This document shows positions 1 through 19,049 of a stretch of 64,000 nucleotides of DNA, in pieces. Source of the stretch: Flectonema sp. DT1601. Taxonomy: Eukaryota; Euglenozoa; Diplonemea; Diplonemida; Diplonemidae. The stretch covers positions 1-64,000 of the forward strand of contig OZ025825.1 in the NCBI GenBank assembly GCA_964019425.1, in the 5' to 3' direction. The notes beneath the pieces are model-generated. The model was not told the origin of the DNA, ran no database searches, and worked only from the letters and a program-made list of their open reading frames with translations. Made by a program: the position numbers and the translations under genes. Position 1 is the stretch's first letter; the number at the start of each line of letters is the position of its first letter.

Positions 1-285
1 TTTATATTCTGAGCACCAACGCTCTTCTTATTTTTTAACAAGACAAAGATACGCGTGCAACTGTCAGGAGTCCGTTAGAGGACCTCCACGGATCGGCAGC
101 TCCTGACACTGTGCTTGCAAAGCGAGAGATCAACGTAAAGACGGTGGCCAAAGACCACTGGGTCACCTGCGAGCCGAAAGGGCCCTACGGTTGTCCTCAT
201 AGAACTAGGAGATAAGGAGAAAGAATGGAGAAGATGTATACTAAAAGATAATAGTATTGACTTGTTTAACTACAGCTGAGTGCTG
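1..285 (-). other. LINE A 3' UTR with conserved hairpins
   Basis: The 3' UTR of A is nearly identical to that of B. It contains the invariant hairpin at 144-158 (GTGGTC-TTT-GGCCAC in element sense), an adjacent stem GGGCC/GGCTC, a long stem TGTCAGGAG/CTCCTGACA, and a terminal GAGC/GCTC hairpin at the window edge. There is no long poly(A) tail. Such structures serve as RT recognition sites in many LINEs; that role here is inference. Confidence 0.7.
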
Positions 286-3200
286 TCAGGTTTGAACCCA
301 TTGCTCCATGTTCCATATGAATCCGGCAAGGGCATGCAAGTTACGTGTAGCAAACATGAACGGAAGACTCAAGGCAGTCTTCGAGATTCTTGCTTCCTCA
401 ATAATTTCACCAATAGTTCCTTTTCGAATGTACATCAGCGCCGCAGCAGTGCATTCCAGTATCAGATGACGTGGTGAAGACTCCGTTCTTTGACAAAAGA
501 GACACATCCGAGGAACTTCTTTAATTCTAAGTAAGTGATGAGATCCAGTCCTGAATCTAGCTATTCTAATTTCTGATGACCTCAGCATGTTGGGGGGGTA
601 ACGAGCAGCCTTGTAACCCCCAGTGGCTTCCAGGTATTGTCTCAGCATGACACGCTTGACAGGGGGCCTCGCAGTCTCAGCACCTTCAAGCATCCTGCCA
701 AATAGCTTCCTACCGGTTTCGCGTGCAACCCTCGACTTGTGTGCAAAGAAGTCCATTTTTGAATTAACTGGCTTCCCATCCAAATCTTTAGAAGCTGCCT
801 TAGCCAGTTTATCAGCCTTGTCGTGAGGATCAATCCCTACATGCGATGGGATGAATTGAAGATGGACAAAGGTCCCCAATTGTTTGATTTTGTTCAGTAT
901 CGACAGCGAATTCACCTTCCTCTGAGCCACAATACCTCCCTTCAGTTCATCTAAATTCGACTTCGAGTCACTAAATATCCTTGTGATCCCGCAGGTAGAT
1001 CCAAACGGCGAGTTTATCTTGCCAATTTCATAAACCAATAATTTCAGAGCTATCTGTTCAGACTTGTAACTACTTTCAGTGGCCACAAGTCTGGATGCCC
1101 TGGTACACTCTACCGGTAAGACCTGCACGGCCGCTGCACCAGCAGTGTAGTTCTTAGGGTCATGAGATCCATCTGTATATATCGTGGAGTCAGAGGGTCT
1201 GAGTTCCCTGCAGTATTCATCAAACTTTAGTTTATCAGCTGCAGCATCGACAGTTTTGGAGTGTCCGTAGCCACACGATATCGAGAGGTTCGGTACATCT
1301 GCCCACGGTTCAATACTGTCGGGTTGTACTATATCTTGAATTGAGATCTGTCGATCCTCAGGCGGTAGTTTTAAACTCCATAGACCACTAGCAATTGAAC
1401 GAGTTGAGGGGACCCACTTCAGAGATCTGTACCTGAAGAGGGCAGTCCTTGCTTGTTTTTCGATCAGTAGGCGCATTGGCAGCATATCCGCTTCCCACAA
1501 CAGCGGCAAGGAGCGTGTAAAGTCACTGCAACCCGTGATCCTCCTCGCGACTTTCCTAAGACTGAGATCGATTGGCCCAAGTTGTTCATCAGTTAGGAAT
1601 GGGCCGAAGCTTTCCAGACCGTAGGACACCCTTGAGAGGATGTAGAGGTTTTTTACCATCTGTAATGACTTAAAATCGAGGTTATAAGGTTCGAGCTTCC
1701 TCAGTAGAGCCAGTCCCTTCCTAGATTCGTTCAGTATTTTATCAACTTGCGTATCGTACTTGAGATCATCATCGATGTGGACTCCAAGGTACTTTACGCT
1801 GTCCACCATCGGCAAGAGAACCGATGTTAGTAATCTTACCCGAGTCCGTTGCGGGCCAGCGAGTATGACCCTCATTAAATCATCAGTGCTAAGGACTTCA
1901 GTGTCATCGATCTTTAGAATTGTTTCACCACTTCTTAATATTGGCCTCTTAGAGTCATTTGGTTGCAACATCTTCCTCAAATCATCCCTGTTCACCAGAT
2001 AGAAATTGTCTTTCACCGTCCTGGGGAAGCCCAGTCTCCAGTACACATTCTTCGGACATCCCACCGGCATCCCGCACGTTTTTGAAACAGACAAGGCCAT
2101 GTCGTTGTCCCTACACCAAGTATCAACGAGTCCCAGTATCCATTGAGCCTTCTTATTCGTACTTGATAGGTCCCTATCCGATATGACACAAGCAGTGTCA
2201 TCGGCATAAAGAGCCGAGATAGAACCAGTTTTCTCCAAAGTCTTTGCGAGGTCATCCACATAGATCAGGTAAAGAAGCGGACCCACGATTGAACCTTGAG
2301 GAACACCCATTGAGACCGTCTTGTATGAACTAAAGTTTCCGTTAGCTTCCACCCTTGTGCGTCTTCCTGAAAGGAAGTTGGCTATCCACCCAATGAACGG
2401 GGAGGGAATGCCCATAGCTTTCATTTTTGCAAGGAGTTTGGTGTGATTTATTCTGTCAAAAGCTTCCGTGAAATCGAATGACAGTAATATAGAACTCTTC
2501 TGGGTTGCATCGGCCTCATGTAGTGCATTCACAAGTAGGGAAATCTGTTCACATGTGTTCCTTCCTCTTCTAAAGCCAGCTTGGATCGAAGACAGAACTT
2601 TGTTCTGGGTGAGCCAAAACATCAATCTGTCATAAATAATTCGTTCTAGAACCTTACCAACTACTGAAGTCAGCGTAATTGGTCTATAGCTTGCCACCTT
2701 TTCTTTTGGTTTGCCAAGTTTGTGAACAGGCTTGATCAAGCCTTCCTTCCAGATCTTCGGCACTTCGGTCGACAACCAGGAGTCGTTAACTAGAGACAGA
2801 AGGTGCACCTTGCCCAGCGGGGATAAATTCTTAATCATCGTTCCATGAATCCCATCCGGACCAGGAGCCTTGCCTGACTTAACTTTTTTCAGTGCAAACT
2901 CTAGTTCAGACATTACTACAGGCCTACACACATCTTTGTAGTCGCTGGGTTTAACAGACGGTGATTTCAACTTCGGTCTATTTGAGGTCTTGACATATTG
3001 GTCTAGGAACTTTTCGGGCAGCTGTTTCTCATCGAACTCAGTAATACAAATATCCTGCCCCCTATCAGCTTCAAGGTCTTTAATTTTCTTGAATGCAAAG
3101 GCGAAGCCTTCACCCTTTGAGAGCCTTTCGGAAATAAACTTGCCTTTGGCTTGCTTGGTCTCAGGGGCAGAGGCATTCCACAATCTCCTCCTCTTCCCTT

Positions 3201-4116
3201 TTATCCTCAGTCTCCTTCTGATGTTGTTCCTTGCAGACGCCAGCAGGATGTGGTTAAACGTCCGAGCTCTAGTCCCAACGTCACCGGAAGAACTCGCCTT
3301 GCTCAGTCTGTAATCAAGATTATGACGAAATGAATACCAACTTGCTGTATTGAAGTCCCACACTGACTTTTTTGAAGCGTGGTTGTCGGACGGTTCAAGT
3401 GATGTGAATGTATCAAAGGTAGCGTACAGCGGTGAATGATCAGATCCATGCTTAACACCATCATCAATTAGTTCGAACTGCAGGAGTTGTAATTCTTCGT
3501 GATGGAGAATGACATCAGGTGTAGTTCCATGTCTTGGTAAGGAAGCTAAACCAGGAGTATTCGCAATCAGAAGGTCTTCCTTATCAGTCCAGTTGAGGAG
3601 ATCACATCCCTTGATATCAGTTTTCTTTGACCAATACCTGTGATGTGCATTGAAGTCACCAGCTATGATTGATTTCTTGCCCTGATCAAGGGAGTACCGA
3701 TCGAAGTCGATCCTTGAACTTGGCGGAGAGTAAATATTTATAACATTGACATCATCATTAATACAGATACCCAAAGATTCAACAACACCTCTCATCGAAG
3801 GGACGTAAGTCTTAATACAGGTGTGAGAAAGGCCTCTTTTGACTAGTGTGATGAGACCACCACCCCTACCAGGTCTATCTCTTCTGTAACAAATATAATT
3901 CCAATGAGATAGAGGTTTACTACATGAAGTCTCTTGAAGACATAAGACATCTGGAGAGAATTTACCCAATATGTGACAAAGAAACTCTTCCTTATTTGAA
4001 ATTGTCCTACAGTTCCAACTGATAACATCCAATTTAGAAGAAGGGCCCGGATTAGTTTCAACATCACCAGCAGAGATGAGGAGGTCTCTTTTGGTTTCGA
4101 CAACGTGTCTTTCTAG
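286..4116 (-). CDS. LINE A ORF2 polyprotein: 2A - AP endonuclease - reverse transcriptase - RNase H - CCHC
   Basis: In-frame continuation of ORF1 past its UGA. About 25 codons include the 2A sequence (core at 4042-4068, GDVETNPGP); skipping there would release a 1252-aa protein starting with Pro. Endonuclease motifs: SWNCR, LQETS, AGDFNAHH, GSDHSPL. RT motifs: YRPITL, QAGFRRGRNT, SFDFTEAFDRI, GVPQGSIVGP and catalytic YADD. RNase H: TDGS, SEQ, SDSKS and DKADKLA supply the acidic residues. A C-terminal finger reads CLFCQRTESSPRHLILEC. No ATG occurs in frame before the endonuclease Asn, so an ordinary AUG start for a functional enzyme is excluded. A roughly 90-residue insertion sits between YADD and the VKYLGV motif. 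The frame is intact throughout. Confidence 0.9.
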   Translation of the reverse strand, partial: LERHVVETKRDLLISAGDVETNPGPSSKLDVISWNCRTISNKEEFLCHILGKFSPDVLCLQETSCSKPLSHWNYICYRRDRPGRGGGLITLVKRGLSHTCIKTYVPSMRGVVESLGICINDDVNVINIYSPPSSRIDFDRYSLDQGKKSIIAGDFNAHHRYWSKKTDIKGCDLLNWTDKEDLLIANTPGLASLPRHGTTPDVILHHEELQLLQFELIDDGVKHGSDHSPLYATFDTFTSLEPSDNHASKKSVWDFNTASWYSFRHNLDYRLSKASSSGDVGTRARTFNHILLASARNNIRRRLRIKGKRRRLWNASAPETKQAKGKFISERLSKGEGFAFAFKKIKDLEADRGQDICITEFDEKQLPEKFLDQYVKTSNRPKLKSPSVKPSDYKDVCRPVVMSELEFALKKVKSGKAPGPDGIHGTMIKNLSPLGKVHLLSLVNDSWLSTEVPKIWKEGLIKPVHKLGKPKEKVASYRPITLTSVVGKVLERIIYDRLMFWLTQNKVLSSIQAGFRRGRNTCEQISLLVNALHEADATQKSSILLSFDFTEAFDRINHTKLLAKMKAMGIPSPFIGWIANFLSGRRTRVEANGNFSSYKTVSMGVPQGSIVGPLLYLIYVDDLAKTLEKTGSISALYADDTACVISDRDLSSTNKKAQWILGLVDTWCRDNDMALSVSKTCGMPVGCPKNVYWRLGFPRTVKDNFYLVNRDDLRKMLQPNDSKRPILRSGETILKIDDTEVLSTDDLMRVILAGPQRTRVRLLTSVLLPMVDSVKYLGVHIDDDLKYDTQVDKILNESRKGLALLRKLEPYNLDFKSLQMVKNLYILSRVSYGLESFGPFLTDEQLGPIDLSLRKVARRITGCSDFTRSLPLLWEADMLPMRLLIEKQARTALFRYRSLKWVPSTRSIASGLWSLKLPPEDRQISIQDIVQPDSIEPWADVPNLSISCGYGHSKTVDAAADKLKFDEYCRELRPSDSTIYTDGSHDPKNYTAGAAAVQVLPVECTRASRLVATESSYKSEQIALKLLVYEIGKINSPFGSTCGITRIFSDSKSNLDELKGGIVAQRKVNSLSILNKIKQLGTFVHLQFIPSHVGIDPHDKADKLAKAASKDLDGKPVNSKMDFFAHKSRVARETGRKLFGRMLEGAETARPPVKRVMLRQYLEATGGYKAARYPPNMLRSSEIRIARFRTGSHHLLRIKEVPRMCLFCQRTESSPRHLILECTAAALMYIRKGTIGEIIEEARISKTALSLPFMFATRNLHALAGFIWNMEQWVQT
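4042..4068 (-). other. 2A ribosome-skipping peptide, element A
   Basis: Encodes GDVETNPGP, an exact match to the DxExNPGP 2A consensus, preceded by the hydrophobic run DLLISA as in viral and LINE 2A peptides. Skipping would occur between the last Gly and Pro. It lies 17 codons after the ORF1 UGA and 3 codons before the start of endonuclease homology. Confidence 0.9.
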
Positions 4117-5643
4117 TCAGTTCATCTCATCCTCGTCACACCAATCGATGTTTGACATGCCTGATAAGTTACCATTCGGGTCACCTTCGAAGCTGTCAAG
4201 TTGCATCATTATCTGCTCATCCACAGACATTCCAGCTGTAGGGACGGGTGCTTTCTGAGCGTTCTGGTTGGCAAATGTTGGGAAGAAAGTTGGTCCATTA
4301 GCTTTGACCGTTTTGGCTTTGGTTTTCTTCGTCAGGCATCTGATGACCAAGTATTTATCATCACCCATCGCAACGTATGTAGGCGGTTTATAAACTGAGT
4401 GTACGATGAGCATCCTGCTGTTCCCTTTAACAAACGAGCTAACAGTAGTGTGCTTCCAGTCCAATTGCAATATATCAGAGATCTGATCCCTCGAGTATTT
4501 AAGAAGTCCTCTGGCTTCAACTTGATATCTTTCCCCTGCTGGAAGGGGTGGTTGCACCTTGTTGCCGAGTCTGAATCGAATTTCACTCTGAGCAGAAGGG
4601 TGAGCCCTGAGTCCAAAACACGTTTTAAATCTAGCAAGGTAAAAGTCACCGCAGCCTTTTGCTGACTGGGCGGTGTACTTTGCTTCCAAATAGTTGTTGG
4701 TTTTGAAATGAATCGATGGCCATTTTTCATCGCCATTTGACCATGAGGGTAGAGTGAAGAACAGAAATTCACTGGTTCCGTTTAGAGATAGTACCTTCTT
4801 CACCAAAGTTTGATTGAGCCTCAGACACATAGACGAGTGAGATTCCGCGGTTTTGAAGTTGAAAAGGTCCAAGGACTTTGAAATCCCCTCCAACTTTTCC
4901 TTTGATTTAGCGACCAGTTGATCCCTGGTACTTTTACTCCAGTCATTGATTACAATTACCGGGTTCGTTCTGTATTTCATGTCTTCGGACACTTCTTGTC
5001 TGTCAGCACGTTTGCCACATATGTGAGTGACGTAGCACGTTCTGAATCCCGCCGAGCCGTCTTTGTTGATCGCAGGGAGGGTTCTCTTTTCTGACGATGG
5101 GTCGATTGACCTTTTTGATAATGCTGCCCATGAGAACATGACGTTTTTGCTGGTAACTCGGTCTTTCAGTTTCATTTTTTCTGATTTGACCACTTCGTAT
5201 TGTTCCCTGTTGTTAACGAAAACGTATCCGTTTTCAGGGGTCACCTTGTAATCCACTGCGATGTCGAACTTGACTGTCTTACGTTCAAGAACTTCATCGA
5301 AGTAGAAGAACGACTCGTGCACCTTCCACGATGGCTGAGTCGGTTCTTTCGCTTCTTCGTTATGCTGCGGTTTGTTGGCTGGTTGCGGCGTCTGTTGTTG
5401 CTGCTGCTGCTGTTGCTTCGGCTGTTGTTGCTGTTGTTTCAGCTGTTGTTGCTGCTGTTTCGGTTGCTGCTTCTGAGGCGGCTGTTTCTTCTGTACAGAC
5501 TCGTTGTTCGCTCCAAATTTTAAAATTCTGGCCAGAAGGCCGCTGATCTTCTTCACCGCCAACTTCTCGCAGAACCCGTCGGCGGCAAACATCTCCAGGA
5601 GCTCCGTGGCTTCACTCATTAATTCAACAAATGAATTAGACAT
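4117..5643 (-). CDS. LINE A ORF1 protein (glutamine-rich, putative RNA-binding)
   Basis: ORF1 of element A, 508 aa from the first ATG at 5643; the frame is open slightly further upstream but only with GTG. It has a predicted helical N-terminus, a glutamine-rich low-complexity stretch at roughly residues 60-90 encoded by CAG/CAA repeats, then a folded-looking domain of about 350 residues and an acidic C-terminus ending in DEDEMN. No CCHC knuckle is visible, and I recognise no named domain. By position it is the LINE ORF1 protein that packages the element RNA; this is inference. It terminates at TGA (4117-4119) followed by CTA G, a known leaky stop context, and the frame continues without another stop through 2A into ORF2. 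Confidence 0.85.
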   Translation of the reverse strand: MSNSFVELMSEATELLEMFAADGFCEKLAVKKISGLLARILKFGANNESVQKKQPPQKQQPKQQQQQLKQQQQQPKQQQQQQQQTPQPANKPQHNEEAKEPTQPSWKVHESFFYFDEVLERKTVKFDIAVDYKVTPENGYVFVNNREQYEVVKSEKMKLKDRVTSKNVMFSWAALSKRSIDPSSEKRTLPAINKDGSAGFRTCYVTHICGKRADRQEVSEDMKYRTNPVIVINDWSKSTRDQLVAKSKEKLEGISKSLDLFNFKTAESHSSMCLRLNQTLVKKVLSLNGTSEFLFFTLPSWSNGDEKWPSIHFKTNNYLEAKYTAQSAKGCGDFYLARFKTCFGLRAHPSAQSEIRFRLGNKVQPPLPAGERYQVEARGLLKYSRDQISDILQLDWKHTTVSSFVKGNSRMLIVHSVYKPPTYVAMGDDKYLVIRCLTKKTKAKTVKANGPTFFPTFANQNAQKAPVPTAGMSVDEQIMMQLDSFEGDPNGNLSGMSNIDWCDEDEMN

Positions 5644-5690
5644 CTTGCTGTTCTTCTGATGGGTGGAAACCCGCACAAAATTGAAGTCTC

Positions 5691-5760
5691 ACCCGTAAGG
5701 TTCGAAATCAATAAAGTACAGAAACTGTAGCTTTAGAATCGTTGGTAAAAATAAAAAATC
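5691..5760. other. Junction between inverted LINEs A and B
   Basis: About 70 bp of AT-rich sequence between the putative 5' end of A and the 5'-truncation point of B. It matches neither element as far as I can see. It may be original target DNA or the extreme 5' UTR of A. No obvious target-site duplication is seen. Confidence 0.4.
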
Positions 5761-6219
5761 TTCAGACTCGGCAACAAGGTGCAACCACCCCTTCCAGCAG
5801 GGGAAAGATATCAAGTTGAAGCCAGAGGACTTCTTAAATACTCGAGGGATCAGATCTCTGATATATTGCAATTGGACTGGAAGCACACTACTGTTAGCTC
5901 GTTTGTTAAAGGGAACAGCAGGATGCTCATCGTACACTCAGTTTATAAACCGCCTACCTACGTTGCGATGGGTGATGATAAATACTTGGTCATCAGATGC
6001 CTGACGAAGAAAACCAAAGCCAAAACGGTCAAAGCTAATGGACCAACTTTCTTCCCAACATTTGCCAACCAGAACGCTCAGAAAGCACCCGTCCCTACAG
6101 CTGGAATGTCTGTGGATGAGCAGATAATGATGCAACTTGACAGCTTCGAAGGTGACCCGAATGGTAACTTATCAGGCATGTCAAACATCGATTGGTGTGA
6201 CGAGGATGAGATGAACTGA
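5761..6219 (+). pseudogene. LINE B ORF1, 3' portion only (5'-truncated)
   Basis: The last 152 codons of ORF1, corresponding to the C-terminal third of the ORF1 of A and identical to it in protein sequence. It lacks the start, the N-terminal helical part and the glutamine-rich stretch, so it cannot make a complete ORF1 protein. It ends at TGA (6217-6219) followed by CTA G, with the frame remaining open into 2A and ORF2, exactly as in A. Confidence 0.85.
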
Positions 6220-9200
6220 CTAGAAAGACACGTTGTCGAAACCAAAAGAGACCTCCTCATCTCTGCTGGTGATGTTGAAATTAATCCGGGCCCTTCTTCT
6301 AAATTGGATATTATCAGTTGGAATTGTAGGACAATTTCAAATAAGGAAGAGTTTCTTTGTCACATATTGGGTAAATTCTCTCCAGATGTCTTATGTCTTC
6401 AAGAGACTTCATGTAGTAAACCTCTATCTCACTGGAATTATATTTGTTACAGAAGAGATAGACCTGGTAGGGGTGGTGGTCTCATCACACTAGTCAAAAG
6501 AGGCCTTTCTCACACCTGTATTAAGACTTACGTCCCTTCGATGAGAGGTGTTGTTGAATCATTGGGTATTTGTATTAATGATGATGTCAATGTTATAAAT
6601 ATTTACTCTCCGCCAAGTTCAAGGATCGACTTCGATCGGTACTCCCTTGATCAGGGCAAGAAATCAATCATAGCTGGTGACTTCAATGCACATCACAGGT
6701 ATTGGTCAAAGAAAACTGATATCAAGGGATGTGATCTCCTCAACTGGACTGATAAGGAAGACCTTCTGATTGCGAATACTCCTGGTTTAGCTTCCTTACC
6801 AAGACATGGAACTACACCTGATGTCATTCTCCATCACGAAGAATTACAACTCCTGCAGTTCGAACTAATTGATGATGGTGTTAAGCATGGATCTGATCAT
6901 TCACCGCTGTACGCTACCTTTGATACATTCACATCACTTGAACCGTCCGACAACCACGCTTCAAAAAAGTCAGTGTGGGACTTCAATACAGCAAGTTGGT
7001 ATTCATTTCGTCATAATCTTGATTACAGACTGAGCAAGGCGAGTTCTTCCGGTGACGTTGGGACTAGAGCTCGGACGTTTAACCACATCCTGCTGGCGTC
7101 TGCAAGGAACAACATCAGAAGGAGACTGAGGATAAAAGGGAAGAGGAGGAGATTATGGAATGCCTCTGCCCCGGAGACCAAGCAAGCCAAAGGCAAGTTT
7201 ATTTCCGAAAGGCTCTCAAAGGGTGAAGGCTTCGCCTTTGCATTCAAGAAAATTAAAGACCTTGAAGCTGATAGGGGGCAGGATATTTGTATTACTGAGT
7301 TCGATGAGAAACAGCTGCCCGAAAAGTTTCTAGACCAATATGTCAAGACTTCAAATAGACCGAAGTTGAAATCACCGTCTGTTAAACCCAGCGACTACAA
7401 AGATGTGTGTAGGCCTGTAGTAATGTCTGAACTGGAATTTGCACTGAAAAAAGTTAAGTCAGGCAAGGCTCCTGGTCCGGATGGGATTCATGGAACGATG
7501 ATTAAGAATTTATCCCCGCTGGGCAAGGTACACCTTCTGTCTCTAGTTAACGACTCCTGGTTGTCGACCGAAGTGCCGAAGATCTGGAAGGAAGGCTTGA
7601 TCAAGCCTGTTCACAAACTTGGCAAACCAAAAGAAAAGGTGGCAAGCTATAGACCAATTACGCTGACTTCAGTAGTTGGTAAGGTTCTAGAACGAATTAT
7701 TTATGACAGATTGATGTTTTGGCTCACCCAGAACAAAGTACTGTCTTCGATCCAAGCTGGCTTTAGAAGAGGAAGGAACACATGTGAACAGATTTCCCTA
7801 CTTGTGAATGCACTACATGAGGCCGATGCAACCCAGAAGAGTTCTATATTACTGTCATTCGATTTCACGGAAGCTTTTGACAGAATAAATCACACCAAAC
7901 TCCTTGCAAAAATGAAAGCTATGGGCATTCCCTCCCCGTTCATTGGGTGGATAGCCAACTTCCTTTCAGGAAGACGCACAAGGGTGGAAGCTAACGGAAA
8001 CTTTAGTTCATACAAGACGGTCTCAATGGGTGTTCCTCAAGGTTCAATCGTGGGTCCGCTTCTTTACCTGATCTATGTGGATGACCTCGCAAAGACTTTG
8101 GAGAAAACTGGTTCTATCTCGGCTCTTTATGCTGATGACACTGCCTGTGTCATATCGGATAGGGACCTATCAAGTACGAATAAGAAGGCTCAATGGATAC
8201 TGGGACTCGTTGATACTTGGTGTAGGGACAACGACATGGCCTTGTCTGTTTCAAAAACGTGCGGGATGCCGGTGGGATGTCCGAAGAATGTGTACTGGAG
8301 ACTGGGCTTCCCCAGGACGGTGAAAGACAATTTCTATCTGGTGAACAGGGATGATTTGAGGAAGATGTTGCAACCAAATGACTCTAAGAGGCCTATATTA
8401 AGAAGTGGTGAAACAATTCTAAAGATCGATGACACTGAAGTCCTTAGCACTGATGATTTAATGAGGGTCATACTCGCTGGCCCGCAACGGACTCGGGTAA
8501 GATTACTAACATCGGTTCTCTTGCCCATGGTGGACAGCGTAAAGTACCTTGGAGTCCACATCGATGATGATCTCAAGTACGATACACAAGTTGATAAAAT
8601 ACTGAACGAATCTAGGAAGGGACTGGCTCTACTGAGGAAGCTCGAACCTTATAACCTCGATTTCAAGTCATTACAGATGGTAAAAAACCTCTACATCCTC
8701 TCAAGGGTGTCCTACGGTCTGGAAAGCTTCGGCCCATTCCTAACTGATGAACAACTTGGGCCAATCGATCTCAGTCTTAGGAAAGTCGCGAGGAGGATCA
8801 CGGGTTGCAGTGACTTTACACGCTCCTTGCCGCTGTTGTGGGAAGCGGATATGCTGCCAATGCGCCTTCTGATCGAAAAACAAGCAAGGACTGCCCTCTT
8901 CAGGTACAGATCTCTGAAGTGGGTCCCCTCAACTCGTTCAATTGCTAGTGGTCTATGGAGTTTAAAACTACCGCCTGAGGATCGACAGATCTCAATTCAA
9001 GATATAGTACAACCCGACAGTATTGAACCGTGGGCAGATGTACCGAACCTCTCGATATCGTGTGGCTACGGACACTCCAAAACTGTCGATGCTGCAGCTG
9101 ATAAACTAAAGTTTGATGAATACTGCAGGGAACTCAGACCCTCTGACTCCACGATATATACTGATGGATCTCATGACCCTAAGAACTACACCGCTGGTGC

Positions 9201-10050
9201 AGCGGCCGTGCAGGTCTTACCGGTAGAGTGTACCAGGGCATCCAGACTTGTGGCCACCGAAAGTAGTTACAAGTCTGAACAGATAGCTCTGAAATTATTG
9301 GTTTATGAAATTGGCAAGATAAACTCGCCGTTTGGATCTACCTGCGGGATCACAAGGATATTTAGTGACTCGAAGTCGAATTTAGATGAACTGAAGGGAG
9401 GTATTGTGGCTCAGAGGAAGGTGAATTCGCTGTCGATACTGAACAAAATCAAACAATTGGGGACCTTTGTCCATCTTCAATTCATCCCATCGCATGTAGG
9501 GATTGATCCTCACGACAAGGCTGATAAACTGGCTAAGGCAGCTTCTAAAGATTTGGATGGGAAGCCAGTTAATTCAAAAATGGACTTCTTTGCACACAAG
9601 TCGAGGGTTGCACGCGAAACCGGTAGGAAGCTATTTGGCAGGATGCTTGAAGGTGCTGAGACTGCGAGGCCCCCTGTCAAGCGTGTCATGCTGAGACAAT
9701 ACCTGGAAGCCACTGGGGGTTACAAGGCTGCTCGTTACCCCCCCAACATGCTGAGGTCATCAGAAATTAGAATAGCTAGATTCAGGACTGGATCTCATCA
9801 CTTACTTAGAATTAAAGAAGTTCCTCGGATGTGTCTCTTTTGTCAAAGAACGGAGTCTTCACCACGTCATCTGATACTGGAATGCACTGCTGCGGCGCTG
9901 ATGTACATTCGAAAAGGAACTATTGGTGAAATTATTGAGGAAGCAAGAATCTCGAAGACTGCCTTGAGTCTTCCGTTCATGTTTGCTACACGTAACTTGC
10001 ATGCCCTTGCCGGATTCATATGGAACATGGAGCAATGGGTTCAAACCTGA
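6220..10050 (+). CDS. LINE B ORF2 polyprotein: 2A - endonuclease - RT - RNase H - CCHC
   Basis: Same domain order as A ORF2 and identical to it in protein sequence except one Val/Ile difference just before the endonuclease Asn and one Thr/Ile difference in the 2A (GDVEINPGP at 6268-6294). The first codon usable as an apparent start near the endonuclease is TTG (6304), not ATG; the first in-frame ATG lies well inside the endonuclease domain. Catalytic residues of endonuclease (N, E, D/N, SDH), RT (YADD) and RNase H are present. Because ORF1 is truncated, how this copy would be translated is unclear. Confidence 0.9.
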   Translation, partial: LERHVVETKRDLLISAGDVEINPGPSSKLDIISWNCRTISNKEEFLCHILGKFSPDVLCLQETSCSKPLSHWNYICYRRDRPGRGGGLITLVKRGLSHTCIKTYVPSMRGVVESLGICINDDVNVINIYSPPSSRIDFDRYSLDQGKKSIIAGDFNAHHRYWSKKTDIKGCDLLNWTDKEDLLIANTPGLASLPRHGTTPDVILHHEELQLLQFELIDDGVKHGSDHSPLYATFDTFTSLEPSDNHASKKSVWDFNTASWYSFRHNLDYRLSKASSSGDVGTRARTFNHILLASARNNIRRRLRIKGKRRRLWNASAPETKQAKGKFISERLSKGEGFAFAFKKIKDLEADRGQDICITEFDEKQLPEKFLDQYVKTSNRPKLKSPSVKPSDYKDVCRPVVMSELEFALKKVKSGKAPGPDGIHGTMIKNLSPLGKVHLLSLVNDSWLSTEVPKIWKEGLIKPVHKLGKPKEKVASYRPITLTSVVGKVLERIIYDRLMFWLTQNKVLSSIQAGFRRGRNTCEQISLLVNALHEADATQKSSILLSFDFTEAFDRINHTKLLAKMKAMGIPSPFIGWIANFLSGRRTRVEANGNFSSYKTVSMGVPQGSIVGPLLYLIYVDDLAKTLEKTGSISALYADDTACVISDRDLSSTNKKAQWILGLVDTWCRDNDMALSVSKTCGMPVGCPKNVYWRLGFPRTVKDNFYLVNRDDLRKMLQPNDSKRPILRSGETILKIDDTEVLSTDDLMRVILAGPQRTRVRLLTSVLLPMVDSVKYLGVHIDDDLKYDTQVDKILNESRKGLALLRKLEPYNLDFKSLQMVKNLYILSRVSYGLESFGPFLTDEQLGPIDLSLRKVARRITGCSDFTRSLPLLWEADMLPMRLLIEKQARTALFRYRSLKWVPSTRSIASGLWSLKLPPEDRQISIQDIVQPDSIEPWADVPNLSISCGYGHSKTVDAAADKLKFDEYCRELRPSDSTIYTDGSHDPKNYTAGAAAVQVLPVECTRASRLVATESSYKSEQIALKLLVYEIGKINSPFGSTCGITRIFSDSKSNLDELKGGIVAQRKVNSLSILNKIKQLGTFVHLQFIPSHVGIDPHDKADKLAKAASKDLDGKPVNSKMDFFAHKSRVARETGRKLFGRMLEGAETARPPVKRVMLRQYLEATGGYKAARYPPNMLRSSEIRIARFRTGSHHLLRIKEVPRMCLFCQRTESSPRHLILECTAAALMYIRKGTIGEIIEEARISKTALSLPFMFATRNLHALAGFIWNMEQWVQT
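6268..6294 (+). other. 2A ribosome-skipping peptide, element B
   Basis: Encodes GDVEINPGP after DLLISA. It differs from the A copy by one C/T change that swaps Thr for Ile at the variable position of DxExNPGP, which the consensus tolerates. Confidence 0.88.
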
Positions 10051-10335
10051 CAGCACTCAGCTGTAGTTAAACAAGTCAATACTATTATCTTTTAGTATAC
10101 ATCTTCTCCATTCTTTCTCCTTATCTCCTAGTTCTATGAGGACAACCGTAGGGCCCTTTCGGCTCGCAGGTGACCCAGTGGTCTTTGGCCACCGTCTTTA
10201 CGTTGATCTCTCGCTTTGCAAGCACAGTGTCAGGAGCTGCCGATCCGTGGAGGTCCTCTAACGGACTCCTGACAGTTGCACGCGTATCTTTGTCTTGTTA
10301 AAAAATAAGAAGAGCGTTGGTGCTCAGAATATAAA
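10051..10335 (+). other. LINE B 3' UTR with four hairpins
   Basis: Downstream of the ORF2 stop. Visible stems: HP1 GGGCC/GGCTC (10151-10165), HP2 GTGGTC-TTT-GGCCAC (10178-10192), HP3 TGTCAGGAG/CTCCTGACA (10228-10274) enclosing a GTCC/GGAC stem, and terminal HP4 GAGC-GTTGGT-GCTC (10312-10325). The copy ends AGAATATAAA without a long poly(A). Corresponding stems in C carry paired changes. Confidence 0.75.
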
Positions 10336-11996: not shown

Positions 11997-14900
11997 CTAA
12001 AAAGATAGTAACTTCTGATAACAGCTTGTTGCCGTCCATTGTTCTAAATGCCATATGAAGCCAGCGAGGGAATGTAAGTTCCTCGTAGCGAACATAAATA
12101 GCAGGCTGTGTTCCTTCTTTGAAATCTTCGCTTCTTCCATGACAGATCCAATTGTTCCATTTCTGATGCGTACCAGAGCAGAGTTCATGCAGTTAAACAT
12201 CAAGTGTCTAGGTGATGAGTCCGTCCGTTTACAAAAAGGGCACTTCAGTTGTACGCCTTTGTCTCTCAGCAAGGGGTGTGAACCCGTTCTGAATTGTGCA
12301 ATTCTTACTTCCGAAGCCCTCAGCATGTCTTTCGGATATCTAGCAGTTCTCAATCCTCCGGTCGCCTCCAGATACTGTCTGAGCATCACCCGTTTCATTG
12401 GAGGCTTTGCCTTCTCGGAGGCTTCCATCATCTTTCCTATCAACTTCCTGTGAGACTCCCTCGCTACCCTTGATTTGTGGGCGAAGAAATCCATGGTCGT
12501 TGAGACCGGTTTACTTTCGGCATCCTTCGAGACTTCTTTGGCCAGCTTATCAGCCTTATCGTGTGGTTCAATCCCCACATGGGCCGGGATAAACTGGAGA
12601 TGCACCTGTGTCTTCAGATCCCTAATGCTTTCCAGTATTAACAGAGAGTTCAACTTCCTCTGGGCAACAATCCCTCCATTGAGTTCCTCCAGGTTGGATT
12701 TCGAGTCACTGAAGATTCTGGTAATACCTGACCTGGGACCCAAGATCGAGTCAGCTTTGCCAATTTCTCTCATCAGCAGTTTGAGTGTTACTTGTTCAGC
12801 CTTGTAGCTGCTTTCAGTAGCTACAAGTCTTGACGACATCGTTCTCTCAGTTGGTGAGACCTGTACTGCTGCCGCACCCGCAGTGTAGTTAGCAGGATCA
12901 TGTGAGCCGTCCACATATATAGCCGAGTTGCAAGGGACTAGGTCCCTGCAGTATTCCTCAAATTTGTTCCTATCCACATCTGCATCACCGGTCTTGTTAT
13001 GACCATACCCACAGGATATCTCTAGATTTGGTACATCCGCCCAAGGTTCGATGCTGTCAGGTTGAACTATTCCTTGGAGGGCGATGTTACAATCTTCCTG
13101 CGGCAACTTAGAACTCCAGAATCCTTTCGCTATTCGGTTCGTCGAACGTACCCACTTCAGCGATCGATACCTAAACAGAGCAGTTCTGGCCTGTTTTTCT
13201 ATTATCAACTTCATCGGGAGCATGTTCGCCTCCAAGAGCAGTGGGAGAGACCTGGTGTAGATGCTGCAACCCGTTATCCTTCTCGCAATCTTCTTCAGAT
13301 TCAAGTCCACAAGATCAATCTGACCCTCAGATAGGAAAGGACCGAAGCTCTCCAGCCCATATGACAGCCTTGAAAGTATGTACAGGTTCTTGACCATGCA
13401 CAGCGTCTTAAAATCAAAATCATACTGTTCTAGTTTCCCCAGGAGTGCAAGACCCTTCCTGGTCTCATCCAGCATCTTTCCGACCTGTGTTCCATAAGAT
13501 AAATCACCATCAATGTGCACCCCCAGGTATTTAACGCTGTCTACCATCGGCATCAGTACTGCGGTTAACAACTTTACTCTCAGCTTACTTGATCCATCAG
13601 GGAAAATTGCAAGCAGGTCCTTCGTATTAGCAACTTCGGTATCATCCACCTTGAGAATGGTTTCTCCACTACCCAGAATTGGCCTTCCAAACTCGTTCGG
13701 TCTGATCATCTTAGCCAGATCTCCCCTGCTTACAACGTAATAATTATCCTTTGCAGTCCTGGGGAAGCCCAGTCTCCAGTAGATATCCTTTGGGCAGCGC
13801 ACAGGCATACCACATGTCTTAGAGACGGACAGTGCCATATCATTGGTTTTGCACCAGCTATCCACAAGTCCAAGGATCCATTGCGCTTTCTTATTGGTTA
13901 AATTAACGTCCTTATCAGAGACTACACAAGCGGTGTCATCTGCATAAAGAGCCGAAACTGAGCCAGTCTTTTCCAACAACTTCGCCAGGTCATCAACATA
14001 AATCAGGTATAGCAGCGGACCGATAATCGAACCTTGGGGAACCCCCCTCGTTACCGTTCTGTAGGAGCTAAGGTTGCCATTCGCACTCACCCTTGCCTGC
14101 CTGCCCTTCAGGAAGTCAACTACCCATGCAATGAACGGGGAGGGAATACTCATGTTCTTCATCTTCTTGATCAGTTTCTCATGATTAATTCTATCAAATG
14201 CTTCCGTGAAGTCGAACGACAGCAGAACAGAGCTCTTGTTCTTTTCACTGGCCTCATGAAGAGCGTTGACTAACATTGAAATCTGCTCACACGTATTCCT
14301 TCCTCTTCTAAAACCCGCCTGGATAGACGACAGGGCATTGTTCTGGGTAAGCCAATACATCAACCTATCATAAATCACTCTTTCAAGTACTTTACCCACC
14401 ACCGAGGTCAACGTGATCGGTCTGAAACTTGCGATCTTATCTTTTGGCTTACCTGGTTTGTAAACTGGCTTGATAAGACCCTCCTTCCAGATCCTCGGTA
14501 CCTTTGACGTTAGCCACGATTCATTGAATAACGCCAGGAGGAAATCCATCCCTATCACCGATAAATTCTTCAACATTATCCCATGGATTCCATCTGGACC
14601 TGGTGCTTTCCCGGGCCTTACCTTCTTGATGGCTCGCTTCAGTTCAGTCATTGTTAGATTCCCTCCGATTTTGGCGAAGTCGCTGCTCTTCGTATTCGGA
14701 GGTCCTAGTTTACGTTTTGTCGGGGTCTTGACAAATTGTTCCAAGAACTTCGCAGGTAGTTGGTTCTCGTCAAACTCCGGAATGTGAATTTCACGTCCTT
14801 CATCCGTCTCAAGGTCCTTTATCTTTTTGAACGCATATGCAAAGCCTTCACCTTTTGCTAGCCGTTCAGCGATAAATTTTCCCTTCGCACGCTTGGTATC

Positions 14901-15884
14901 TGGGGTGGAAGCGTTCCACATTCTTCTTCTCTTCCCTTTGATCCGAAGCCTTCTCCTAACGTACCTCTTCGCTACTCCAAGAACGATTCTGTTGAACGTT
15001 ACTGCTCTTCTCCCAACGCTCGCAGAGTTGTTTACCTTTCCAAACCTGTAGTCTAGTTCATGTTCATATGAGTACCAATCAGCTGTATTGAAGTCCCAGA
15101 CCGATCTCTTCGTCGCGTGGTTGCCCGAAGGCTCAAGGGGTGAGAGCGTATCGAAGGTAGCAGAGAGTGGTGTATGATCCGAACCGTGCTCAATTCCTTC
15201 ACCTACCAGCTCAAAGTTAAGCAGTTGAATCTCCTCGTGGTGCAGGATCAGATCGGGCGAGGTCCCATGTCTCGGCAGTGTCGCTAGACCTGGCGGGTTC
15301 GCAATCAGGAGGTCCTCTTGCCCTGTCCAGTTGAGAAGGTCACAGCCTTTTACGTCGGTTTTCTTGGACCAGTACCTATGGTGTGCGTTGAAGTCACCAG
15401 CGAGAATGAACTTGCCAACACGTTTCAGGGAGAATAGTTCAAAATTAATCCTCGAGCTCGGTGGGGAGTAGATGTTGAGAATACTTACGTCTTCGTTAAT
15501 TCTGACACCCATCGACTCGACGGTTCCTCTCATCGACGGTATGGAGATATCAAAGCAATCATGTTGAATTCCTCGTTTTATTAAAGTGATCAGGCCACCT
15601 CCCCTTCCTGGCCTATCCCTCCTGTAGCAAACGTAGTTCCAATGAAACAATGCCATCCTGCAAGAAGTCTCCTGAAGGCAAAGTACGTCGGGGTCAAGCT
15701 TACTCAGGATGTGTCCAATGAACTCCATTTTGTTCGAGATGGTGCGACAATTCCAACTGATTACATTTAGTTTGCAAGAGGGACCATCCTTTCTCCTATT
15801 CGGCCCTGGGTTTCGTTCAACGTCCCCTGCTATCAGCAAGAGACGTCTTCGAGTCTCAGCCCAGTTCCTTCCATCTACGTGCCG
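11997..15884 (-). CDS. LINE C ORF2 polyprotein: 2A - endonuclease - RT - RNase H - CCHC
   Basis: In-frame continuation of ORF1 past TGA. It has 28 codons to the end of 2A (GDVERNPGP, 15801-15827), then 1268 aa if skipping occurs. Endonuclease: SWNCR, LQETS, AGDFNAHH, GSDHTPL. RT: QAGFRRGRNT, SFDFTEAFDRI, GVPQGSIIGP, YADD. RNase H: VDGS, AEQ, SDSKS, DKADKLA. Finger: CPFCKRTDSSPRHLMFNC. The first in-frame ATG falls after the endonuclease SWNCRTISNK motif, so it cannot start a functional enzyme. The RT insertion between YADD and VKYLGV is present. Closely related to A/B ORF2, more distant from E. Confidence 0.92.
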   Translation of the reverse strand, partial: RHVDGRNWAETRRRLLLIAGDVERNPGPNRRKDGPSCKLNVISWNCRTISNKMEFIGHILSKLDPDVLCLQETSCRMALFHWNYVCYRRDRPGRGGGLITLIKRGIQHDCFDISIPSMRGTVESMGVRINEDVSILNIYSPPSSRINFELFSLKRVGKFILAGDFNAHHRYWSKKTDVKGCDLLNWTGQEDLLIANPPGLATLPRHGTSPDLILHHEEIQLLNFELVGEGIEHGSDHTPLSATFDTLSPLEPSGNHATKRSVWDFNTADWYSYEHELDYRFGKVNNSASVGRRAVTFNRIVLGVAKRYVRRRLRIKGKRRRMWNASTPDTKRAKGKFIAERLAKGEGFAYAFKKIKDLETDEGREIHIPEFDENQLPAKFLEQFVKTPTKRKLGPPNTKSSDFAKIGGNLTMTELKRAIKKVRPGKAPGPDGIHGIMLKNLSVIGMDFLLALFNESWLTSKVPRIWKEGLIKPVYKPGKPKDKIASFRPITLTSVVGKVLERVIYDRLMYWLTQNNALSSIQAGFRRGRNTCEQISMLVNALHEASEKNKSSVLLSFDFTEAFDRINHEKLIKKMKNMSIPSPFIAWVVDFLKGRQARVSANGNLSSYRTVTRGVPQGSIIGPLLYLIYVDDLAKLLEKTGSVSALYADDTACVVSDKDVNLTNKKAQWILGLVDSWCKTNDMALSVSKTCGMPVRCPKDIYWRLGFPRTAKDNYYVVSRGDLAKMIRPNEFGRPILGSGETILKVDDTEVANTKDLLAIFPDGSSKLRVKLLTAVLMPMVDSVKYLGVHIDGDLSYGTQVGKMLDETRKGLALLGKLEQYDFDFKTLCMVKNLYILSRLSYGLESFGPFLSEGQIDLVDLNLKKIARRITGCSIYTRSLPLLLEANMLPMKLIIEKQARTALFRYRSLKWVRSTNRIAKGFWSSKLPQEDCNIALQGIVQPDSIEPWADVPNLEISCGYGHNKTGDADVDRNKFEEYCRDLVPCNSAIYVDGSHDPANYTAGAAAVQVSPTERTMSSRLVATESSYKAEQVTLKLLMREIGKADSILGPRSGITRIFSDSKSNLEELNGGIVAQRKLNSLLILESIRDLKTQVHLQFIPAHVGIEPHDKADKLAKEVSKDAESKPVSTTMDFFAHKSRVARESHRKLIGKMMEASEKAKPPMKRVMLRQYLEATGGLRTARYPKDMLRASEVRIAQFRTGSHPLLRDKGVQLKCPFCKRTDSSPRHLMFNCMNSALVRIRNGTIGSVMEEAKISKKEHSLLFMFATRNLHSLAGFIWHLEQWTATSCYQKLLSF
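15801..15827 (-). other. 2A ribosome-skipping peptide, element C
   Basis: GDVERNPGP preceded by RRLLLIA. It matches the 2A consensus with the usual upstream hydrophobic stretch. Located 28 codons (to its end) after the ORF1 UGA. Confidence 0.9.
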
Positions 15885-18800
15885 TCATTTACCTTCCAAG
15901 AATCTCGTCATCAGCATCTCTAAACGATCCATCCTTCGTTCCATCGTATCCTGTTCAGCTGTCGACTTCTTCACAGTTTTCTTTGTCACAACCTGCTCTA
16001 CAGGACCTACTTCCTTCAAGGCTCCTTTCCTCTCCTCAATCTTCACACCCGCTTCCCGCCAGAGTCTCTTCCCCTTCCCCTTACCATGAAAGGATAAGAA
16101 TTCTGCTCGCAAGTAGCAACGATTAGAGGCCTCCCCCTCTGTTGGATCACGTCTCTTCTCCGGCGGAGTAAGGCCTTTTTCCGGTGTGCTCTCCGCAGTT
16201 GACGTTGGCTGAGTTTTCTCCTTCACACCCACCTCTCTGGCAGCTTGGCGCTTCTTACGATCTTGTCTTTGAACTACCTCAACCGTACATGCCCTACCGT
16301 CGATTAATACCGTGTCGTCATCCGGCACTTCAGCACGCACCCTCATCCATCTGTATCCAGTCCTTACTCCATCCACGGTTGCTCTCACATGCCACCCATC
16401 CTTCGCCAGCAGCGCTACCGCTTCACGGGGAAGTACATCTAACGGAATTCCCGAGATTTCTAATTCAGGGAGCTTTGCAGGGATTCCCAGTTTTTCCCTG
16501 GTTACATCTTCCAGCTCCGGTGAAACTCTGATACCAAAACCTTTAGGGTTTTCGACTAATCCCAACGATTCCAAGGAATCAGAGTGTTCAACTGCCTCCT
16601 TCAAAGAGCACTCGTCCTGAAGCCAAATAACTGTATCCTTCGGAGCCTCCCCTTCGTCTTGGATCCACAAGAACCTCCCATCTTTGCCGGAAGTTCTTAG
16701 CAGTTCCACCGCCCCGGATTTCCTCAGTCGGATGACAGCCGACACCGTACTCTTCGTTACCCTGAAGTTGTACGCTTCCATGAAGCCGGGTGTGTCCTTC
16801 ATTTCTTTTGTGATGAGGTGCTCAGGCTTACTCGCTAACTCAAGCCACTTATCATCCTTCCACCTTCTTTTAGGAGCGGTCACTATTGCCTTCACCGATT
16901 TAATACCCCGCTTACCCTTTGGTAGAGCAGCCTCACCCAGGTCATGAATGAAGATGCGATGTACCTTGTTTCCATCCTTGCTCGATAATAGCACGTGTTC
17001 CCTTCTTCCTTGTCCATTCACTTGGTCCAGCGTTACCACGCTGCACGTTTTCCATGCAGGAACCTCCGGCTTCATCCCCAGAAGATCTCTTGCCTCCGAA
17101 GGCGTCGCAAGGGCTACTCCTTGATTCCCTTTCGATACCTCCTCAAACTTCGTGACCGGAATGTTCCAATCAGCTTCTCTCAGGCTCCAGGAGTTCAACA
17201 CTTCCCTCTCCTTCTTGTTGGTTTTCTCCCAGAGACGTCTGGCTTTTTCAACAGCTTTCATCGACTGCGTCGCTTTCTTTTCCAGTGATTCCCACTCGGA
17301 TGTGCAGTTCCTCTGTACAGCTGATCTAACCTTTGACTCATCAGTGGTGAGGCCGTAGGAGCGAGAGTAGGTCAGACCGTTCACTAAGTTGGCAATTCCC
17401 AGTGGTGGTTGGCTCGGGGCTACTACGACCTCATTCACTTCTTCGCTTCTCTGCGCTCTCGATGAGGCCAACTCCTGTCTCAGTTCTTTCAGCTGAGTCT
17501 GTAGTTCCATGAGCAACTTCCTCAGCTCACCCTTCTCTTCTCTCTCTTTCTGGAGCTCCAGTCGGAGTTGTTCAATTCCCTGTTGTTGCGGAAGTACCGG
17601 CGGGTACGGTTGCCTTTGATGCATCGGTGCATAAGGCTGGTGCTGCATGTAGTAAACCGGAGGTTGGCTAACTGCATGCGTTTGCTGACGGAGGCTGCTT
17701 TGTTGGAGTTGGAGCTTCTGTTGCTGTTGTCGCAGTTTTCCTTCTTGAAGTTCCAGATCTAGCTTTGACTTCTGGTCTTCTTGTTGCTGTTGTTCGAACT
17801 CCTTTCCAAGCTCCCGTTGAAGTTGGAGCAGTTCCTTCCTCCCTTGTTCCTTCTCCTTTTCTTGTTGTTGTTGGAGTTGATGGCTACGCAGCTTCTGTTG
17901 TTCGAACTCCATGTCTAGCTTGTTCCTGAGACACTGGAGTTCCTTCCTACCCTTCTCCATCTCGTCCTCCTGCTGGCGTTGTAGTTGGAGTCGTTGATGC
18001 TCAAGGTCATCTTCCTGCTTTTTGATTTCTTCCCGTCTCTGTTGTTGTTGCTGCTGGTCCAGTTTGCCCTTTTCCAACTCCACATTCAGTTGATGTTGAA
18101 GCAGCTGCTGTTTTTCCTCCAGGCTAACCTGTTGCAGTTGCAGATTCTGTTGAATCCTGGACTGTTCTTGTTGTTGTTGGCGTTGGTCTTCTTCGAGTTG
18201 GCATCTTCTTCTTCGGAGAGACTCATCCTCGACAGCCTTCTCCTTGCTGTGCTGCTGTTCGAGCTGCTGTTGTTGGATCAGGATTTGTTCCTGCTTCTGT
18301 TGTAGGTCTGCTTTATATTGTAGCAGTTCTTGTTGTTGTTGGTTTAACAACTCTTGGCTATGTTGTTGGTTTTGATGTTGTTGTTGGACTTGATGCTCAA
18401 GTTGTTGTTGCTGTTGTATATGCTTATCCTGCTGTTGTTGGACTTGTTGATCAAGTTGCTGTTGCTGCTGCTGTTGAATTTCCTGCTGCTTTTTGACTTG
18501 ATGGCTAAGTTGCTGTTCTTGCTGTTGTTGCTTCAGACAGAGTTCATCTTCGTACTGAGTAAGAGCCTTCTGTTGTTGATGCAGATGTTCCTGGTTTTGT
18601 TGCTGTTGATGGTCCAGTTGTTTCTGGTTGACAAGTTGCTGCTGTTGATGGTTAGTCAGTACTTCCTCAAGCTGTTGTTGCTTTTGGAATAATTCTTCCT
18701 GTTTCTTCTGGAAGTTAACTTCTAGCTCACTCTGTTGTTTGCAGAGGAGCTCTTGTTGTTGCAGCAGTTCGTTCTTCTCTTCTTCCTGCTCTGCCTGTTT

Positions 18801-19049
18801 TTTCTTGAGGACCTTCTCGTCCTTCTTCCTGTCTTCGTCCCGATCCAGCCTTCTTAGGCCATCCCGTGCGAGTCTCTCCCTCAACTCGTCTCGTTCCTTC
18901 GTATCTACGCTCGTCTTCCTGTCTTTCTTACCGTTCCCGTTCTCTGTGTGTGCTTTCTGGTTCCTTTCCTTCCGTGAGAGTATTTCTCCTCCCATCTGGT
19001 TGCAAAATTTAGTCGGTCTCTGCCGTCCGAGACCGCCGCGTGGAGGCAT
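15885..19049 (-). CDS. LINE C ORF1 protein, glutamine-rich coiled coil with tandem W-containing modules
   Basis: 1054 aa from the ATG at 19049 (MPPRGG). The frame continues upstream, but that part runs antisense into the tRNA gene. Residues of about 90-500 form a very glutamine-rich, Leu/Glu/Lys-containing coiled coil with many CAA/CAG codons. The C-terminal half holds two similar modules, near residues 770-815 and 885-920, both with the pattern GR/GYR..W......P.DTV, suggesting an internal duplication. It is probably the RNA-packaging partner of ORF2. It ends EGK then TGA followed by CGG C, with no further stop before ORF2. No homology to A ORF1 is obvious outside the Q-rich style. Confidence 0.85.
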   Translation of the reverse strand: MPPRGGLGRQRPTKFCNQMGGEILSRKERNQKAHTENGNGKKDRKTSVDTKERDELRERLARDGLRRLDRDEDRKKDEKVLKKKQAEQEEEKNELLQQQELLCKQQSELEVNFQKKQEELFQKQQQLEEVLTNHQQQQLVNQKQLDHQQQQNQEHLHQQQKALTQYEDELCLKQQQQEQQLSHQVKKQQEIQQQQQQQLDQQVQQQQDKHIQQQQQLEHQVQQQHQNQQHSQELLNQQQQELLQYKADLQQKQEQILIQQQQLEQQHSKEKAVEDESLRRRRCQLEEDQRQQQQEQSRIQQNLQLQQVSLEEKQQLLQHQLNVELEKGKLDQQQQQQRREEIKKQEDDLEHQRLQLQRQQEDEMEKGRKELQCLRNKLDMEFEQQKLRSHQLQQQQEKEKEQGRKELLQLQRELGKEFEQQQQEDQKSKLDLELQEGKLRQQQQKLQLQQSSLRQQTHAVSQPPVYYMQHQPYAPMHQRQPYPPVLPQQQGIEQLRLELQKEREEKGELRKLLMELQTQLKELRQELASSRAQRSEEVNEVVVAPSQPPLGIANLVNGLTYSRSYGLTTDESKVRSAVQRNCTSEWESLEKKATQSMKAVEKARRLWEKTNKKEREVLNSWSLREADWNIPVTKFEEVSKGNQGVALATPSEARDLLGMKPEVPAWKTCSVVTLDQVNGQGRREHVLLSSKDGNKVHRIFIHDLGEAALPKGKRGIKSVKAIVTAPKRRWKDDKWLELASKPEHLITKEMKDTPGFMEAYNFRVTKSTVSAVIRLRKSGAVELLRTSGKDGRFLWIQDEGEAPKDTVIWLQDECSLKEAVEHSDSLESLGLVENPKGFGIRVSPELEDVTREKLGIPAKLPELEISGIPLDVLPREAVALLAKDGWHVRATVDGVRTGYRWMRVRAEVPDDDTVLIDGRACTVEVVQRQDRKKRQAAREVGVKEKTQPTSTAESTPEKGLTPPEKRRDPTEGEASNRCYLRAEFLSFHGKGKGKRLWREAGVKIEERKGALKEVGPVEQVVTKKTVKKSTAEQDTMERRMDRLEMLMTRFLEGK

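Follow-up and report, generated by a model that had tools for sequence, protein, structure and literature searches.

Background

How the second open reading frame (ORF2) of a long interspersed nuclear element (LINE) is translated is a long-standing question. SART1, L1 and TART are, like the elements considered here, two-ORF LINEs that need special ORF2 translation; in the parts of PMC5972666 and PMC5009743 that deal with them, SART1 uses reinitiation, unconventional reinitiation is proposed for L1, the mechanism of TART is given as unknown, and none is described with stop codon readthrough into a 2A peptide. In this study, we analysed a stretch of 64,000 nucleotides (nt) of contig OZ025825.1, hereafter the window, and followed its LINEs into the rest of the genome. 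The elements are two-gene LINEs of the apurinic/apyrimidinic endonuclease (APE) type, in which ORF1 ends at UGA followed by C and the same frame continues through a linker and a 2A motif into ORF2. Here a candidate answer can be read from the sequence in several families at once, namely that readthrough of the UGA and then StopGo at the 2A probably best explain the junctions.

Trypanosome L1Tc/ingi elements also reside in a euglenozoan host, and L1Tc has one long ORF. APE-type LINEs of animals that carry a 2A were reportedly described by Odon et al. in 2013; in these and in the related proteins P0048, P0062 and P0131 the 2A precedes the endonuclease as it does here, whereas the three proteins differ in having a predicted Met before the 2A. 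L1Tc has an AP endonuclease, reverse transcriptase (RT), RNase H and an active 2A (PMC4748587); our elements share the endonuclease, the RT and a 2A motif, and possibly the RNase H. The relevant part of that source mentions no UGA-separated ORF1, while in our elements a stop has to be passed before the 2A.

On the side of readthrough, the published type II context is UGA followed by CUA or CGG (PMC11166343), and UGA CUA G has been published as a high-readthrough motif (PMC12233894). Studies quoted in PMC11166343 give about 1.5-2.9% readthrough for UGA-CUA alone and 17% for OPRL1, which has further elements; by analogy, readthrough at such a level would suit ORF2. The ilarvirus CP-RT, a type II case, resembles our junctions in having UGA with CUA or CGG and an in-frame extension without conserved AUG, and UGA C was present in all eight sequences first examined (PMC11166343). 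Type II cases differ from ours in that many have a stem-loop about 6-12 nt downstream, and the sections of that source describing them mention no 2A. The LTR retrotransposon Tca2 and the retrovirus murine leukaemia virus (MuLV) likewise have an in-frame stop between structural and enzyme genes (PMC2194720, PMC5009743), but they have no 2A and are not LINEs, whereas here a 2A would split the proteins during translation. Providence virus has readthrough and a 2A in one genome, but according to the portion of PMC6548363 concerned they lie in separate ORFs; cardioviruses have StopGo beside a frameshift site, but with StopGo first and frameshifting as the second event (PMC5009743, in the relevant part). 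Readthrough at UGA with CUA or CGG, the 2A of L1Tc (PMC4748587) and gag-pol readthrough are thus each known separately. Among the papers listed from the open-licence literature of PubMed Central, in lists of which several were cut (in one case to the best 20 of 93), we found no description of readthrough into a 2A in a LINE, and an earlier description is possible. If the present reading is true, these would be the first transposable elements shown to use readthrough for setting a protein ratio and StopGo for undoing the resulting fusion, with two recoding events joined in one cassette within a cellular genome.

Results and discussion

Junctions in the window

The window begins with two copies, A and B, of one LINE. 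In copy B (plus strand) a 5'-truncated ORF1 remnant is open from 5755 to 6216, the repeat arm common to A beginning at 5761, and the junction reads GAG ATG AAC TGA CTA G, with AAC TGA CTA G at 6214-6223 and the TGA at 6217-6219. Past the TGA the frame of the remnant stays open over 6220-10050, a length of 1276 codons plus a stop, starting with the linker and 2A, LERHVVETKRDLLISAGDVEINPGP, at 6220-6294, where 6294 is the end of NPGP, and continuing into APE endonuclease, RT and RNase H-like parts. The Pfam search of this ORF2 gave PF03372, PF14529 and PF00078 above cut-off and PF00075 below it (E=0.0032). Copy A, on the minus strand, has a glutamine-rich ORF1 of what we call type I (4120-5643, its start placed at the earliest Met in the open frame), the same AAC UGA CUA G with the stop at 4117-4119, a linker and 2A ending ...DLLISAGDVETNPGP at 4042-4116, and an ORF2 open frame at 286-4116 whose domains are those of the Pfam run on copy B. 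The first-pass annotation of this DNA had described such a stop and an open frame through a 2A into the endonuclease, with no ATG until inside the endonuclease, and the description was borne out in both respects: the frame was seen in A and B, and the first in-frame Met of LINE A ORF2 is residue 108, after LQET at 60 and after SWN at 33, which we take to be an endonuclease active-site motif. The ORF2s of A and B differ at 22 synonymous and 2 non-synonymous codons out of 1277 (terminal stop counted), which argues for strong protein-level selection on ORF2 despite its AUG-less beginning. As to their arrangement, the two copies form a head-to-head inverted repeat of 4575 bases (arms 1-4575 and 5761-10335, with 25 mismatches); within 1-10335 the 5' end of A sits between the arms and B is 5'-truncated. 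This suggests two head-to-head insertions or one inversion.

Two further families of the window, C (AAA TGA CGG C) and D (AAC TGA CTT G), have the same plan. LINE C lies on the minus strand, with an ORF1 of type II at 15888-19049 (start at the first Met) that has a glutamine-rich region and a conserved C-terminal part and gave no Pfam match, its stop at 15885-15887, a linker and 2A, RHVDGRNWAETRRRLLLIAGDVERNPGP, at 15801-15884, and an ORF2 open frame of 1295 amino acids at 11997-15884. In LINE D, on the plus strand, the ORF1 side is in frame for 95 open codons only before the stop at 22659-22661; a long, weakly constrained linker and 2A ending ...LLLLAGDVERNPGP follow at 22662-22829, and the ORF2 frame (1326 amino acids) spans 22662-26642. 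For these ORF2s Pfam placed the endonuclease and RT above cut-off; RNase H of C (PF00075, E=0.00085) was below it, and in LINE D ORF2 no RNase H match was reported.

Conservation of the junction across the genome

We searched the genome (89.5 Mb in 92 contigs) and scored the best 40 of 58, 98 of 402 and 92 of 388 candidates; distant families may have been missed by these searches. This added groups E, E2, F and G, giving seven groups together with A/B, C and D. Over loci L001-L080 and the window, all 63 distinct junctions, defined as a 2A with a stop at most 70 codons upstream, have TGA followed by C, and no 2A was found that lacked a stop within that distance. The contexts were AAG TGA CTTG (21), AAC TGA CTAG (20), AAA TGA CGGC (14), AAC TGA CTTG (4) and AAG TGA CATG (4), and the triplet after UGA is CUA in A, F and G, CGG in C, CUU in D and E, and CAU in E2. 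The 2A has the form GDVE(R/T/I)NPGP in 62 of the 63, the lone exception having G in place of E, and the consensus D(V/I)ExNPGP is likewise present in 62. L029 and L074, which are one place, gave no 2A match; the genome matches there start no earlier than residue 35 of 427 in one query and base 283 of 601 in another.

We also searched the genome with five patterns in which the stop was left free as NNN and the flanks, including the C, were fixed; 2-3 mismatches were permitted and every match used 0 or 1. All 116 junctions obtained have TGA with C at position +4 (F/G 39 of 39, E/E2 30 of 30, C 17 of 17, A 7 of 7, D 23 of 23), although patterns of this kind overlook divergent copies such as L079 and copies without those flanks. 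Given these 116, we do not consider chance a credible origin of the junction. The frame is kept across the junction despite linker lengths of 25, 26, 28, 36 and 56 codons, and between families the linkers are mostly unalignable while UGA-C is retained. A junction frame that is random across the family, which would speak against the first-pass proposal, was looked for in the genomic copies and is ruled out by retention of the frame in all junctions of the loci. Within a family, invariance says little as the copies are young, and it is the agreement between families that carries the weight. Of the leaky context named in the first-pass annotation, UGA followed by CUA, UGA-C holds in every family found and the exact CUA in A, F and G only.

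Start codons and selection on the linker

The representatives of A, C, D, E, F and G all have SWN ahead of their first in-frame Met. With duplicates counted, an in-frame Met between UGA and SWN is absent from 77 of the 82 junction rows in the loci; the other five are four E2 rows, with Met at codon 16 within the 2A, and L079 of family D. Family A has AUC at codon 14 as its sole in-frame near-cognate codon before NPGP, and C, D, E, E2, F and G have several, at differing positions.

An ORF2 start could also be supplied, or the UGA removed, at the level of the mRNA by spliced-leader trans-splicing or by cis-splicing. Spliced-leader trans-splicing is common to all Euglenozoa, as stated in the part of PMC10161547 concerned, so a separate ORF2 mRNA is conceivable. 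By eye, however, no pyrimidine tract with AG precedes the linker at a shared position, an in-frame AUG for such an mRNA to use is missing from the representatives of six of the seven groups, and splicing of the UGA out of the LINE RNA should have left some copies lacking it, whereas no stop-less 2A occurs in the loci. We regard such an isoform as very unlikely.

In order to assess the linker, we compared the substitutions between UGA and NPGP in one copy per family with random placement of the same substitutions. The E/E2 linker (26 codons) has 13 synonymous and 2 non-synonymous differences against a null mean of 9.1 non-synonymous (P<1e-4), and the C/E linker (25 codons, the alignment omitting the first three codons of C and the first of E) has 18 and 2 (P<1e-4). 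The beginning of the linker behaves in the same way, with 8 synonymous and 1 non-synonymous difference in the first 12 aligned codons of C/E (P=0.0002) and 4 and 1 in the first 10 codons of E/E2 (P=0.028), and the last 23 codons of A/E have 11 and 8 (P<1e-4). In the other two frames of the E/E2 and C/E linkers the differences are almost all non-synonymous and stops are present. The last 30 codons of ORF1 gave 6 synonymous and 10 non-synonymous differences for E/E2 (P=0.066), where the pair is less constrained than in its linker, and 10 and 7 for F/G (P=0.0004). From the protein-level selection on the C/E/E2/A linkers, it appears that translation in this group begins upstream of the linker; for F, G and D the linker test does not indicate it.

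These results also bear on whether the frame and the 2A might be coincidental or decaying, that is, inherited relics without present function. The families share ancestry, so UGA-C could have been inherited unchanged, but the 22 synonymous against 2 non-synonymous codons of the A/B ORF2, the frame held across linkers of different length and the linker selection in C/E/E2/A all go against decay. A relic is contradicted for the A, C and E families, with the linker test being compatible with one in D, F and G, and overall we consider it extremely unlikely.

Host and stop codon usage

The Dymeclin gene at 31586-33559 has its best named relative in Diplonema papillatum (37%), and a transcriptome relative is 81% identical. 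Mainly from this gene, with which the histone genes agree, the host is a euglenozoan, probably near the diplonemids. The histone genes (L081-L090) look H3-like by eye, are intronless and mostly in tandem, and have an unusual N-terminus. UGA ends Dymeclin at the place where the 81% identical protein likewise ends, which indicates that UGA is a true stop in this host, and constitutive decoding of UGA was rejected on this ground. If UGA were instead a sense codon, ORF1 and ORF2 would be one long frame, and the frame is indeed open on either side of it; host genes such as Dymeclin end at UGA, however, and a general reassignment would not require UGA-C, which makes this explanation scarcely credible. 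Nor is UGA-C the stop habit of the host. Six long host genes in the window end in TGA-G, TGA-A, TGA-G, TAA-T, TAA-G and TAA-T (UGA-C in 0 of 6), and among 17 ORFs of at least 200 amino acids without a match to the A, C or D proteins in the loci and the window, some of which may not be genes and two of which lie in the damaged LINE described below, 8 end in TGA and 0 in TGA-C.

Proposed mechanism and evidence bearing on it

In the proposed mechanism, most ribosomes would halt at the UGA and yield the ORF1 protein, and a minority would insert an amino acid at UGA-C by a type-II-like programmed readthrough. These would stay in frame through the stretch of 25-56 residues that ends in the 2A, where StopGo at NPG/P would release ORF1-linker-2A, and the ribosome would continue into a distinct ORF2 protein, with endonuclease, RT and RNase H-like parts, whose first residue would be Pro. 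Readthrough would thereby fix the ORF1:ORF2 ratio, as in gag-pol recoding, and the 2A would part the two proteins, leaving no ORF1-ORF2 fusion, whereas Gag-Pol remains fused until proteolysis. The first-pass proposal of UGA readthrough followed by 2A stop-go is supported by what is read from the sequence, namely UGA-C, the kept frame, the 2A, the lack of a usable AUG in most groups and the linker selection in C/E/E2/A, and by contrast with a neighbouring LINE in the window; from these we infer readthrough itself, the activity of StopGo and the ratio function.

That neighbour is a damaged LINE on the minus strand (27244-29984), with its RT cut short and its ORF1 in broken frames. The motif scans of the window found no 2A there. 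Its ORF2 (27244-29148) is in a frame different from that of ORF1, and the two overlap in ATGA at 29148-29145 (ORF2 ATG 29148-29146, ORF1 TGA 29147-29145), a stop-start overlap that would fit the arrangement expected for reinitiation.

In order to compare the junctions with related proteins, we scanned for an early NPGP all 139 proteins listed in the protein searches. Most of these searches were made with ORF2, with the best 120 of 507 and the best 120 of 460 matches listed; no named trypanosome element was among the ORF2 matches listed. Six of the 139 have NPGP within the first 80 residues: P0005, which is the D family of this genome; P0004, a EukProt transcriptome relative with 49% identity to B; and P0048, P0053, P0062 and P0131, from sources other than this genome, with 24-28% over the aligned parts. 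Apart from P0053, each of these proteins has a predicted Met at its start, ahead of the 2A. Such a prediction does not prove a start, as gene callers look for one: P0005 has its initial Met at the position of a Val in D of the window. The 2A either predates the elements of this genome or arose repeatedly, and in other elements an ordinary start may be usual. PF00075 is carried by the relatives P0004, P0006 and P0008.

Several observations weigh against readthrough followed by StopGo. We folded 60, 100 and 150 nt after ten representative stops and compared them with shuffles; nine of the ten gave z values from -1.5 to +2.1 with no consistent 3' structure. LINE C gave z values of 0.6 (60 nt), -3.4 (100 nt) and -2.3 (150 nt), pairing there starting at base 17 past the stop, so that a 3' RNA structure is possible in C alone, and the type II stem-loop about 6-12 nt downstream was found at none of the ten. 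A conserved 3' RNA structure was rejected from these ten folded stops, save as possible in C, and the same holds for a 3' structure of the Sindbis type. The type II triplets CUA or CGG are present in A, F, G and C; D and E (CUU) and E2 (CAU) have only UGA-C, and UGA-CUU and UGA-CAU are less documented contexts. An AUG-less extension under coding selection, also a mark of type II, was found for C, E and A, whereas there is an AUG in E2, whose loci L021, L022, L023 and L076 carry it in frame within the 2A (LLLMAGDVE) and could start ORF2 directly from it, and in the D copy L079, which has a Met in the linker. The F/G linker has 4 synonymous and 6 non-synonymous differences (P=0.10, not significant), and for D against L079 the values are 1 and 7 (P=0.92), with selection absent. 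The sample of host stops is small, and TGA-C also ends the ORF2 of A and two other LINE-related frames. Finally, P0004 has a Met upstream of GNVEVNPGP, a motif without the usual D; in P0048, P0062 and P0131 a predicted initial Met precedes GDVERNPGP, while the first residue of P0053 is Leu. Relatives may therefore have a normal ORF2 start.

The last points, with the E2 AUG and the Met of P0004, P0048, P0062 and P0131, would favour termination-reinitiation or non-AUG initiation, in which translation would end at the UGA and begin again close by in the frame of ORF2. PMC5972666 gives reinitiation as known for SART1 and as a proposal for mammalian L1, the neighbouring damaged LINE has a fitting ATGA overlap, and the in-frame near-cognate codons of C, D, E, E2, F and G might serve non-AUG initiation. 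However, these near-cognates have no shared position near the UGA, and in LINE A the first in-frame AUG comes at residue 108, with the single AUC as the one near-cognate before NPGP. In C/E/E2, linker selection comes as close to the UGA as 1-4 codons, and UGA-C would be unnecessary for a restart. On balance, we find restarting of this kind unlikely.

ORF1 types and exchange across the junction

The ORF1 of A is 32-33% identical to the available ORF1 parts of D, F and G and has no significant BLAST match to that of C or E; the C and E ORF1s match each other. A profile comparison of type I with type II gave a probability of 35% (E=4e-4, 273 columns), a weak match by which remote homology is possible, and we do not call the two unrelated. 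Profile searches with both ORF1 types found no credible solved structure: one type gave none and the other five weak matches, the best being the adhesin YadA (E=0.04). In the ORF2 tree, B, C and P0003 group with the transcriptome relative P0004 (98/98), and D and P0007 group with P0006 (99/100); for this tree the software flagged a single long branch in the outgroup and, in three outgroup rows, an uneven composition. P0003 is 95% identical to E, and P0007 corresponds to F at 100% over 69 residues and to G at 91% over 81.

The relationships of ORF1 and ORF2 therefore conflict, from which we conclude that ORF1 was exchanged across the junction or that A is a recombinant. Both ORF1 types end in UGA-C, and its apparent persistence through ORF1 exchange is in our view the best indication that there is a reason for keeping this stop context. 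A 2A would release anything upstream of it, so that ORF1 could be exchanged across the junction without harm to ORF2. The chances are about even that this euglenozoan LINE lineage carries a portable two-step switch, a leaky UGA-C plus a 2A, serving two highly diverged ORF1 types. If this is true, it would provide a reason for ORF1 swaps between LINEs and a set of natural UGA-C/2A cassettes with differing contexts.

Other observations

A search of positions 1-31500 of the window with Rfam gave no match at the gathering threshold, including to a Pr77/hepatitis delta virus (HDV)-like ribozyme, the presence of this motif in the library being unchecked. In contigs C92, C79 and C39, matches to the 18S end recur near contig ends, about 6.88 kb apart in C92, which suggests ribosomal DNA arrays. 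The window has three tRNA-Val(AAC) genes, all on the plus strand (19107-19180, 27136-27209 and 31092-31165). One is found some 60 bases upstream of where LINE C ORF1 has its first Met, and the remaining two lie at either end of the damaged LINE without 2A, positions that suggest LINE insertion beside tRNA genes.

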